Both the position numbers and the translations under genes were made by a program. A stretch of 64,000 bases of DNA from Mycolicibacterium sp. (GTDB lineage Bacteria; Actinomycetota; Actinomycetes; Mycobacteriales; Mycobacteriaceae), in assembly GCA_020637165.1 (NCBI GenBank), contig JACJWN010000003.1, forward strand, positions 620,001-684,000. The letters run 5' to 3'. The notes under the pieces are model-generated. The model was not told the DNA's origin, did not search any database, and was given only the letters and a program-made list of their open reading frames with translations. Of the stretch, positions 56,749 to 64,000 are shown one piece after another (the stretch's first letter is position 1; each line of letters starts with the position of its first letter).

Positions 56749-59700
56749 CTACGGCGTGCCGGGTTGGCCGGGGTTCCCGTCGACGCCGGGCGCAACTCCC
56801 GTGCCTGCGGCCCCGCCGGCCCCGCCGGTAGCGGAGCTCACGGCCGTCGCGTCGCCACCGTCGCCGCCGTCACCGCCGTTGCTGCCGGGGTCGGATCCCG
56901 ATCCGCCCGTACCTCCGTCACCGCCTCTGACGACCGGGCCGCCAGTCGCGTCGCCGCCATTGCCGCCGTCACCACCGGTGGCAGAAGCCGTCCCACCGCC
57001 GTTGCCGCCGTCGCCGCCTGTTGCGTTTCCATTGGCCGTGGCGGTCGCGGTGCCGCCTTGACCACCGTCACCGCCGTCGACAGTGCTCCCAGTTCCTCCG
57101 TTGCCACCGTTACCGCCGGTCGCGAACGCCCCTGCGGGACCCTGGGTCGAAGCGCTGCCGCCTTGACCACCGTTGCCTGCAGCTCCGTCATTGGTGTCGC
57201 CACCAAGGCCGCCGCTGCCACCTTGAGCTACCCACAGCTCGGAGAGTGCCCCGCCACCGGCACCACCGGTTCCGGCGGTGCCGTTTTCTGAGCCGCCGGC
57301 GTTGCCGCCACTACCACCGGTGGCAGTAGTTCCCAGGGCTGTGTTGGTGGCCTGGCCAAACCCGCCTTGGCCCCCGTCGGCTCCGGTGCCGGCGCCCAGA
57401 GCGCCGCCCCCATTGCCACCGTTGCCGGCGACGGCCGAGGTGAACAACCCGCCCGCCGTCGCGTCGCCACCGGTGCCTGCGGTGCCGCCGTCACCGGTGG
57501 TACCCGAGCCACCGTTGCCTCCGGTTCCGCCCGTGGCCCCAGATTGTGCGCTGGTTGCGTCACCTCCGACTCCGCCGGCACCGCCGTCAGTGTCGCCGTT
57601 TCCTCCGTCGCCGCCGTTTCCACCGGTAGCGGAGGCACCGCTGCCCGATGCGGTCACGCTGGCGCCGTCACCACCGTTGCCGCCGACAGCGCCGTCACCG
57701 CCGTCACCGCCGTCACCGCCCTGCACCGCTCTGGCGGCCGACGTCGCCGAACCTCCCGCGCCGCCGTCGCCGCCCGCGCCGCTGCCGCCGTTGCCGCCGT
57801 CGCCGCCGTCACCGCCTACGCCCCGGCCATCTTCCGCGGAGCTACCCGCGCCACCGTCGCCGCCGGTGCCGCCGGTCGAACCACCGGTACCGCCGGCGCC
57901 GCCGCGGCCACCCTGTCCGTCGCCACTGCCGAGTCCGACCCCGGCACCACCGGTGCCGCCGCCACCGCCGGCGCCGTTGGTGGAATCGCCGCCCTGGCCA
58001 CCGTCTCCAGGGTCGGTGTAGTAGGCGGACGTGGCGGTACCGGCGTCACCACCTTGTCCGCCGGTGCCGTCGACCGAGGAGCCACCGTCACCGCCGGCTC
58101 CGCTATAGCCATAGCCGCTCTCGTTCGGGACGTAGGCGTCGCCGCCCTGGCCGCCGGCGCCACCGTTACCGGCACCGCTGGCGTCGCCGCCGTCACCACC
58201 GTCGCCGCCCTCGGCATCGGTGTCCACCCCGGTGGCATTACCGCCGTCGCCGCCCTGACCGCCCGTACCGGCGCCTGTCGCGTCACCGCCGCGCCCGCCG
58301 TCACCGCCGTAGGTGTAGGTGCCGGCAACGGTCGTTGTCGCATCACCGCCGGCACCGCCCAGGCCGCCGTCGCCGTCTCCCAGGGCAGTGCCACCGTCAC
58401 CCCCGGCGCCGCCGTCGACATCCGAGCTTGCCCCCGCGCTCGTGCCTGACCCGCCGGCGCCGCCGTTGCCGGCGATGCCGTTGGTTGAGTCGCCGCCATC
58501 ACCGCCGTCACCGCCCGCCACGTTGCCGGTGGCCGCCGCCGAGGCGCTACCGGCGCCGCCAGTGCCGCCGTCACCGCCGTCTCCCGAGGTCGATCCGCCC
58601 GCTCCACCGTTGCCGCCGTCGCCGCCGTTCCCGAAGAGACTGGAGACGTTGACGACGTCCAGAGATCCATTGCCGGCGGGATCGCCGACGTAGATGACGC
58701 CGCCCGGGCGGACTCCGACCACCCCGCCGTTGCCGGCGGTGAAGGTGTCGATGATGGTGTTGAAGTTCGCGCTGGCCGGGTCGATGTCGATCACCGACAC
58801 CGTCCCGTCGGAATTGCTGACGTAGCCACGTGTTCCGAACTCGACCAGTCCCACCCCCTGCGGATTGGTGAACCCGCTGATGGTGGCCACGATGGCCAGC
58901 GTGGATAGGTTGATGACGGTGACGGTGTTCTGCGCGCCCTGAGTGACATAGGCGTAGTTGCTGAACGACGTGACCGCCACCTCCTGGGGATTGGTGACCG
59001 CGACTGTGCTGACGCTGGGCCCCGACGGGTTGATGACCGACACGGTGTCATCGCCGTTGACAACCACCTGCAGGTTTCCGAAGTAGTTGCTGGCGATATC
59101 GGTCGGCCCCGAGCCGACAGGGATGTCCTGCACGAAGCTGTAGCTGGTGTTTCCGTCGAACTGCGACACCGTGTTCGAGCCGGCGTTCGTCACGTACACC
59201 TGGTTGCTGAACAGCCCGTAAGCAGCAGCGGCAGGCCCTGTGAGGCCCGTGATTGTGGTGTCGGGGGTTCCGTCGAGCAGGAACACCGAGACGGTGTCGT
59301 CACCAGCGTTCGGCACATAGATGCGGTTGTTGAAGACGACCGCGCCCTGCGGGTCCTGCAAACCGGTGACCAGCGTAGTGACCACATTGTTGCTGTCAAT
59401 CCTCGACAGGGTGCCCAGCAAGGTGCTCACCGAGTAGGTGTTGCCGGAATTGTCGAAGCCGATCTGGTAGCCCTGCCCGGTGTCGAGGAGGGTGGCCGCC
59501 ACGGTGTACTGGGTCAGCGCGGCGCCAAAGCCACCGGCGCCGCCGTCGCCGCCGTTACCGATAGCCCCACCGTTTCCACCGTTGCCGCCGTCCCCGCCGA
59601 CGCCGGCGGCGTTGTCATAGCCGGCACCACCGTCCCCGCCGTTACCGGCCGGTGCGGTCACTGGTGTGCCGTTGTCGCCGGCATCGCCGTCGCTGCCGCC

Positions 59701-63732: not shown

Positions 63733-64000
63733 CGCCGGTTCGGTCGAATCCGCCCCCGCACCACCGGCACCACCGTTACCGCCGTTACCGTCGGTGGGCG
63801 CATCCCCGCCGGCACCACCGGCACCGCCGTGACCGCCGCCGTCACCACCGACGCCGCCGACACCGCCGTTGCCCCCATTGCCCGCCGTCGCTCCGCCGGC
63901 ACCGCCGTCACCACCGGCGCCGCCGTCACCGCCTTGGGTGTCGCCGGCCCCGCCGGCACCGCCATTGCCGCCGTTACCGGTACCGACCGCGTCCCCGCCG
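63037..64000 (-). CDS. PGRS-like glycine-rich protein, upstream part, continues past window end
   Basis: The frame is open from the window end (64000) to a TGA at 63037 and reads continuous GGAGG/GGNGG repeats until about 63,100, then turns into Arg/Trp/Cys-rich out-of-frame residues (RRCWWCRWCGD) before the stop. It is the upstream portion of the same gene as 56749-62463, in the same frame, interrupted by the two shifts described separately. The true start and any PE domain lie beyond 64000. Treat as one disrupted, or mis-assembled, gene. Confidence 0.6.
   Translation of the reverse strand, partial: GGDAVGTGNGGNGGAGGAGDTQGGDGGAGGDGGAGGATAGNGGNGGVGGVGGDGGGHGGAGGAGGDAPTDGNGGNGGAGGAGADSTEPAVSGGIGGAGGAGGAGGAVTGDGGNGGAGGAGGDGATGPTGADGVDGATAGADGTDGGRGGTGSNGGAGGAGGNAGAARGSGTAGTNGDGGDGGTGGNAGAGGDGGNGAAGDAATPTGGNGGNGGDSGSVGAGGAGGAAGTGGTGGTAGADGSAGSPATPGGDGGDGGAGYDATGAASGTAGGAGGNGGDGGNYGNGGNGGAGGAGADSTDPAVTGAVGPRRCWWCRWCGDR

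Follow-up and report, generated by a model that had tools for sequence, protein, structure and literature searches.

What kind of protein is encoded by a giant glycine-rich (Gly-rich) gene that runs off the end of a 64,000-nucleotide stretch of a Mycolicibacterium sp. genome (contig JACJWN010000003.1, positions 620,001 to 684,000; in the following the window), and what are the two blocks that interrupt its repeats? An earlier sequence-only reading had described minus-strand GG-x repeats with two non-repetitive blocks of about 300 codons, had taken both blocks for beta-propeller-like domains, and had considered this architecture unusual for a PGRS-type gene. Its outline proved right, i.e., arms with the GG-x triplet composition of PGRS (44-49% Gly) enclose two blocks of 304 and 301 codons that are non-repetitive compared to their surroundings and are supported by sequence profiles as propeller-type domains. 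We consider it likely that its product belongs to a PGRS family without PE domain and would be a Sec-exported outer-membrane scaffold displaying propellers. The parts of the gene are listed in Table 1.

Sequence profiles point to a propeller-type fold for both blocks. With regard to the YVTN-repeat model TIGR02276 (cut-off 27.85 bits), block 1 scores 154.4 bits (E 4.9e-46, six repeats) and block 2, which was queried as 58612-59532, scores 37.5 bits (E 1.8e-9, three repeats). Seven repeat positions per block follow each other at a spacing of 39-44 residues, one block 2 blade being placed by hand. In block 1, six blades carry SPDG or TPDG and the seventh does not. A gapless self-comparison of block 1 reveals a period of 42 with a score reached by 0/200 shuffles; for block 2 the signal is weak (15/200 shuffles reach the score), such that its periodicity alone is unconvincing. 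Among solved structures, both blocks match PDB 1l0q best (E 1.9e-54 for block 1, E 6.5e-16 for block 2), an archaeal surface-layer protein, and a joint profile of the two blocks with 13 relatives matches it with E 1.7e-105. Since block 2 passes no Pfam gathering score and shows a weak self-comparison, its support rests on TIGR02276 and 1l0q.

The YVTN-type blades noted for block 1 in the earlier reading were confirmed. Block 1 also exceeds the Pfam gathering scores of several propeller families, among them Lactonase (44.2 vs 21.7 bits), Cytochrom_D1 (47.1 vs 25.5), SGL (46.3 vs 26.3) and YNCE (41.8 vs 27.1). For block 2, which had been called NHL/YncE-like, the repeat type stood but not the NHL label: the NHL model PF01436 misses its cut-off narrowly by 0.4 bits (19.6 vs 20; block 1 is not listed for NHL), and we use YVTN repeat as the better label. 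The Pfam scores of block 1 might also be read as a sign of a catalytic (lactonase or reductase-like) or regulatory role of the propellers instead of binding, and a relative with a PF00144 serine-hydrolase-type domain (L170) demonstrates that enzymes can be cargo. However, the Pfam propeller families cross-match, each over part of block 1 only, the NCBIfam equivalog models for such enzymes stay far below their cut-offs, block 2 passes no Pfam cut-off, and 1l0q, to which both blocks are closest among solved structures, is a surface-layer protein. We thus deem a catalytic or regulatory role very unlikely and treat both blocks as candidate binding modules.

The two blocks are 21% identical to each other. 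A single tandem duplication as their source was rejected, given that block 1 reaches 42-43% identity with the propellers of two other loci (L114, L160). Relatives of block 2 are found at E <= 0.001 in 131/198 genomes of the genus, its own match included, and we rejected a close block 2 ortholog elsewhere in the genus, as the best-scoring other match among these 198 genomes is 42% identical over part of the block. A scan of named genomes for block 2 gave 113 pattern matches and no confirmed relative.

The window end falls within the gene, whose remainder was followed in adjoining DNA added past the window edge (L002, with window position = L002 position + 56,000). The whole gene extends on the minus strand from window-equivalent 67,368 to 56,749 (L002:749-11368), starts with a GTG codon at 67,368 with AAGGAG just upstream, and comprises 3,540 codons including the stop. 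It is hence longer than the >2,300 codons first noticed, and it does not form one uninterrupted frame in the assembly. For the profile searches, the pieces flanking the frame break were queried separately. At E <= 0.01, neither Pfam nor NCBIfam gives a match for the 1,443-codon N-terminal piece; this includes the PE domain (PF00934), which is also matched by 0/40 scanned N-termini of the family (77 at hand), and the Pfam PGRS model PF21526, which is matched by 4/40 of them. The suggestion to look past position 64,000 for a PE domain or a signal peptide thus had a split result, i.e., no PE match was found, but residues 49-74 form a signal-peptide-like segment ending in A-F-A-D. About 265 residues further on, an entry module with two Cys (NPIADLIRFFVGNGTAENPNAGILLGNGYSYT..C....C...) opens the PGRS region.

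These observations bear on the most obvious alternative, namely an ordinary PE_PGRS protein with propellers in its C-terminal part that is exported via ESX-5. The GG-x arms have the same composition as in PE_PGRS proteins, and YVTN propellers have been reported toward the C-terminus of PE proteins (PMC4758615, 'Beta-propeller' section). On the other hand, a PE domain is matched neither in the focal N-terminal piece nor in the 40 family N-termini, and the GRPLI motif described for the PGRS start of PE_PGRS proteins (PMC9436101) was not found in the focal translation, nor was RPLI; its PGRS region opens with AGILLGNGYSYT... instead. Furthermore, the blocks sit inside the Gly-rich region and not behind it, and EccB was not found in the window genome. 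We consider an ordinary PE_PGRS protein extremely unlikely and rejected membership of the gene in that family for lack of a PF00934 match; the earlier label 'PGRS-type' stands with regard to composition.

To describe the PE-less family proposed instead, we collected frames that bear the entry module. From 146 frames found, 115 distinct ones were kept, and 112 remained after dropping three that are cut at a locus edge; these counts are minimum values, as 1.5-kb flanks or contig ends truncate many loci. The focal copy served as query and as one of three seeds of the module profile, such that its own match is by construction. N-termini were excluded if they belonged to frames of unidentified genomes other than the window's own or had <100 residues upstream of the module, and 40 of the 77 qualifying N-termini were aligned. 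Upstream of the module they share the consensus VGRVGALAVALGVGxAxAxxPxAxAD, with three invariant Gly and at least 90% conservation of L, A, A, L, P, A, A and D. Some strongly hydrophobic stretch precedes the module in 110/112 frames, and none of the 40 N-termini has an NCBIfam match. The module marks a PGRS family for which neither Pfam nor NCBIfam has a dedicated model. A similar signal (GRTGALA) occurs in two frames with visible N-termini out of a group of three (L041, L042, L043; G079) that are 2,230-3,355 codons long and carry several YVTN-type stretches and no Gly-rich arms, which implies that the signal is shared beyond PGRS proteins.

Among the loci collected, 18 frames (14 distinct by reading of the list) combine the module with at least one blade; the focal gene is absent from this list because its frame is broken. 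In a 2,512-codon frame without a stop from one other genome (L046), propellers at 716-1013 and 1263-1567 are separated by a Gly-rich spacer. The window genome itself holds a second case (L185:4729-10563, G000:C31), in which a BNR-like block spans 930-1235 and a YVTN block 1530-1856, where the BNR/Vps10-like assignment of the first block is weakly supported since its Pfam matches are all below cut-off. In L114 the contig ends within the second propeller, 14 consecutive blades are present in L113 and in L121, and L052, L109, L160 and L199 have single seven-blade propellers. When nine inserted regions of family members were searched with Pfam at E <= 0.001, six had no match and three did, i.e., the below-cut-off block of L185, L170 with PF00144, and L195 with pentapeptide repeats and bacterial Ig domains. 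The architecture is therefore unusual only in part: propeller-bearing PGRS proteins recur in the genus and two-block members exist, and the focal gene is an extreme member of a modular family and not a singleton. Two further arrangements were seen. A paralog in the window genome (L052:3942-6593, G000:C29) has a C-terminal YVTN propeller with a short Gly-rich insert in its early blades, and L117:3-5750 consists of three adjoining frames (561, 587 and 670 codons) with 6-7 C-terminal YVTN blades each and no entry module.

The variety among relatives could alternatively mean that the Gly-rich arms are the functional part, e.g., as a matrix or biofilm polymer, while the propellers are neutral inserts from recombination between paralogs. 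Propellers are indeed sporadic (14 distinct frames with blades vs 115 distinct module frames) and differ in kind (YVTN, BNR-like, 14 blades in a row). Nevertheless, seven repeats are readable in both focal blocks, and in several members the borders of the insert coincide with those of the Gly-rich stretches. We give neutral insertion a small chance and continue with propellers as displayed cargo.

A further question is whether the focal gene is intact. Counting GGN codons by phase, the coding phase moves by one from about 63,080 to 62,890 and then reverts. Within this interval lie in-frame stops at 63,039, 63,030, 63,003 and 62,967, and outside of it no other in-frame stop occurs before the true end of the gene. 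Two compensating events and an error of the assembled sequence fit this pattern equally well. It also gives weight to the idea of a pseudogene in decay at the focal locus, or of a misassembly, in which case the propellers would not be joined to this N-terminus in the cell. Besides the shifted frame and its four stops, errors noted in GC-rich parts of PE_PGRS genes (PMC11939664) and relatives whose contigs end inside such genes (L114, L108) speak for this idea. Against it, the frame is restored within about 190 bases, with the remaining ~3,470 codons open; L046 and L185 show the same succession of parts without a break; and a search for long near-identical repeats, which could favour a misjoin, gave none (no match of >=150 bases at 85% identity). 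A second comparison gave repeat matches that are 63-70% identical among the 15 listed of 31, and a tandem-repeat search of the gene, blind to periods >500, found 0 arrays at score 200. We thus regard decay or misassembly as unlikely. A long plus-strand frame over the same stretch was rejected as a presumed mirror of the Gly codons.

Within the genomes sampled, the family occurs in no genus but its own mycobacterial one. At E <= 1e-8, the entry module is present in 110/396 genomes of the genus (109 besides the window genome), and in an order-wide sample it occurs in 12/298 genomes that all belong to this genus (1/76 genera). The window genome has 10 copies, i.e., nine besides the focal one. Among 80 of the 171 confirmed loci, the named carriers include Mycolicibacterium sphagni, M. 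rhodesiae, M. litorale F4, M. frederiksbergense and Mycobacterium pinniadriaticum, besides many metagenome-assembled genomes. Some records with the label Bifidobacterium breve or Acidobacteria also bear the mycobacterial-type PGRS module (L107, L130, L160, L165, L095), which suggests mislabelled or contaminated metagenome bins. At another locus of the window genome (L182, G000:C28:405001-421577), two entry-module genes of 3,140 and 1,696 codons stand head to head on opposite strands and overlap slightly before choice of start codons.

We related the presence of the module to that of PE genes, scoring up to 12 PE candidates per genome. PE matches were obtained in 381/396 genomes, 102 of which are saturated (all 12 candidates match). 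None of the 110 module carriers is among these PE-saturated genomes (Fisher p 8e-18, shared ancestry not removed). The carriers are PE-poor but not PE-free, i.e., 102/110 have at least one and at most 10 PE matches and 8 have none. The window genome shows one PE match (30 bits), one EccD and four WXG100 matches (two over cut-off) and, as stated above, no EccB match, while EccB was found in 11/12 other genomes of the genus, in one via a below-cut-off fragment. It contains an ESX-3-like cluster with PE, a WXG100 pair and EccD (L200, G000:C27:424001-444000). In the literature, PE_PGRS proteins are described as ESX-5-dependent (PMC7028111, PMC4418733), ESX-5 is reported from slow growers only (PMC4418733), and fast growers reportedly possess no PE/PPE proteins other than those of ESX-1 and ESX-3 (PMC7028111). 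In such a genome, a PGRS protein would have to be exported in another way, for which the N-terminus suggests the Sec route.

We infer the following picture of export, location, fold and ligands. The chain would be exported by the Sec route rather than via ESX-5. Its first PGRS stretch may fold as a poly-Gly-II 'sail' with a hydrophobic edge seated in the outer (mycolate) membrane, as in the sail model published for PE_PGRS proteins, where the hydrophobic part of the PGRS is seated there (PMC9436101). The subsequent hydrophilic PGRS, which continues to residue 2064 (47-49% Gly and 4.5-5.1% large hydrophobics over residues 781-1430 and 1490-2064), and the later arms would be rods or spacers that keep the two propellers off the cell. 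We assign different roles to the two kinds of PGRS because their content of large hydrophobic residues differs (13.7% in the first part vs 4.5-6.5% in the later arms). The propeller faces may then bind glycan, lipid or protein ligands for adhesion or capture. The earlier suggestion of a surface binding protein is plausible. Given their low mutual identity, the two blocks probably bind different partners and do not represent one duplicated site.

A wider proposal, to which we give about even chances, is that PE-poor mycobacteria have a second PGRS system, which is routed via Sec and has a signal and an entry module of its own. It would replace PE_PGRS/ESX-5 for outer-membrane poly-Gly sails and serve as a modular rack on which propellers, hydrolases and other cargo are displayed. 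As to what stands at the N-terminus of PGRS proteins, this family's answer would be an export signal and a conserved entry module where PE would otherwise be, and the family would separate the role of the PGRS sail from that of PE/ESX-5. If the proposal holds, PGRS sails are neither PE-dependent nor a trait of pathogens. The inserts also mean that folded domains occur inside the Gly-rich region and not solely at its end.

Several points weigh against the proposed scaffold. Concerning the focal gene, the broken assembled frame means that this copy may not give the full product, and the exact pair of block 1 and block 2 is not conserved among the 198 genomes of the genus searched. A Sec substrate would, in addition, still have to cross the outer membrane. 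Within the family, most module frames are without blades, the strict signal pattern is present in 62/112 frames only, the hydrophobic segment differs by eye in L103, L140, L142, L159 and L162, and in the edge-cut L134 and L154 the hydrophobic stretch lies in the linker. At the genome level, most carriers do possess PE genes, the window genome is not free of type VII genes, and the mutual exclusion of carriers and PE-rich genomes is uncorrected for kinship. Lone weak PE matches are moreover insecure because the PE profile also matches in the E. coli control.

Table 1. Features of the Gly-rich giant gene (window positions unless given as residues or in L002 coordinates).
Feature	Position	Strand	Remarks
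Gly-rich (PGRS-type) giant gene, part inside the window	56749..64000	-	continues to window-equivalent 67368
Basic n-region	residues 1-48	-	translation
Signal-like segment, core and A-F-A-D end	residues 49-74	-	VGRVGALAVALGVG
Linker rich in S, A, V, P and G, low complexity, ~265 residues	up to residue 340	-	
Entry module, 76 residues, two Cys, opens the PGRS region	residues 341-416, L002:10121-10348	-	
First PGRS part	residues 417-780	-	48% Gly, 13.7% large hydrophobic residues
Gly-rich arm upstream of the frame break	63081..64000, gene going on outside the window	-	
Frame-shifted interval	62890..63080	-	four in-frame stops, frame then returns; sequence left as assembled
Gly-rich arm before block 1	61177..62889	-	4.5% large hydrophobics over residues 1490-2064
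Propeller-type block 1 (predicted), seven YVTN-type repeats	60265..61176 (residues 2065-2368)	-	TIGR02276, PDB 1l0q, blade register
Gly-rich spacer between the blocks	59533..60264 (residues 2369-2612)	-	244 codons, 48% Gly
Propeller-type block 2 (predicted), seven divergent repeats	58630..59532 (residues 2613-2913)	-	TIGR02276, PDB 1l0q, register
C-terminal Gly-rich arm	56752..58629 (residues 2914-3539)	-	626 codons, 44% Gly

On one side, the gene is flanked by one unassigned frame and dapB; on the other side, two frames without Pfam match are followed by a beta-lactamase-family gene, an M16 peptidase gene and the gene for PNPase. A search for a conserved neighbourhood among the other loci collected gave no match except the gene's own copy, and no promoter- or terminator-like sites were found at its 3' end.

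Finally, we compared the focal protein and its family with known systems. With the PE_PGRS proteins of pathogenic mycobacteria, they share long Gly-Gly-x arms and a concentration of large hydrophobic residues in one part of the PGRS, and some PE_PGRS members also have a folded domain after the PGRS (PMC9436101, PMC10216338). In contrast to these, the focal protein and the scanned family N-termini show no PE match, and the focal protein has no GRPLI motif, a signal-peptide-like N-terminus instead, a conserved two-Cys entry module and folded blocks embedded between PGRS arms. The PE proteins with YVTN repeats likewise place a YVTN-type propeller in a mycobacterial PE context, but their repeats lie toward the C-terminus (PMC4758615), whereas the focal protein has no PE and two blocks with Gly-rich arms on both sides. 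PE_PGRS proteins have been called restricted to pathogenic strains (PMC10216338), and none were detected in M. smegmatis (PMC1660551). According to a 2025 review, M. smegmatis and other Mycolicibacterium have PGRS domains for which the N-terminus is questionable and the location disputed (PMC11939664). These proteins resemble the present ones in having a PGRS domain outside of the PE_PGRS-rich pathogens; section 2.2 of that review, which covers them, mentions neither propellers nor an entry module. In the available parts of the open-licence papers searched, we found no account of PGRS proteins that lack PE and share this signal as a family, and none of propellers between PGRS arms.

Regarding the blocks themselves, the surface-layer propeller 1l0q is of the same YVTN type but is without PGRS arms. 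YncE is a stand-alone protein. Its family (NF052280, PF21783) has the same repeat type and block 1 passes Pfam YNCE, whereas both blocks stay far below the NCBIfam cut-off (74.7 and 21.6 bits for blocks 1 and 2 vs 400). PGRS proteins and propellers in PE proteins are already known, and the more general finding here is a PE-less PGRS family with an entry module for which the libraries searched hold no model.

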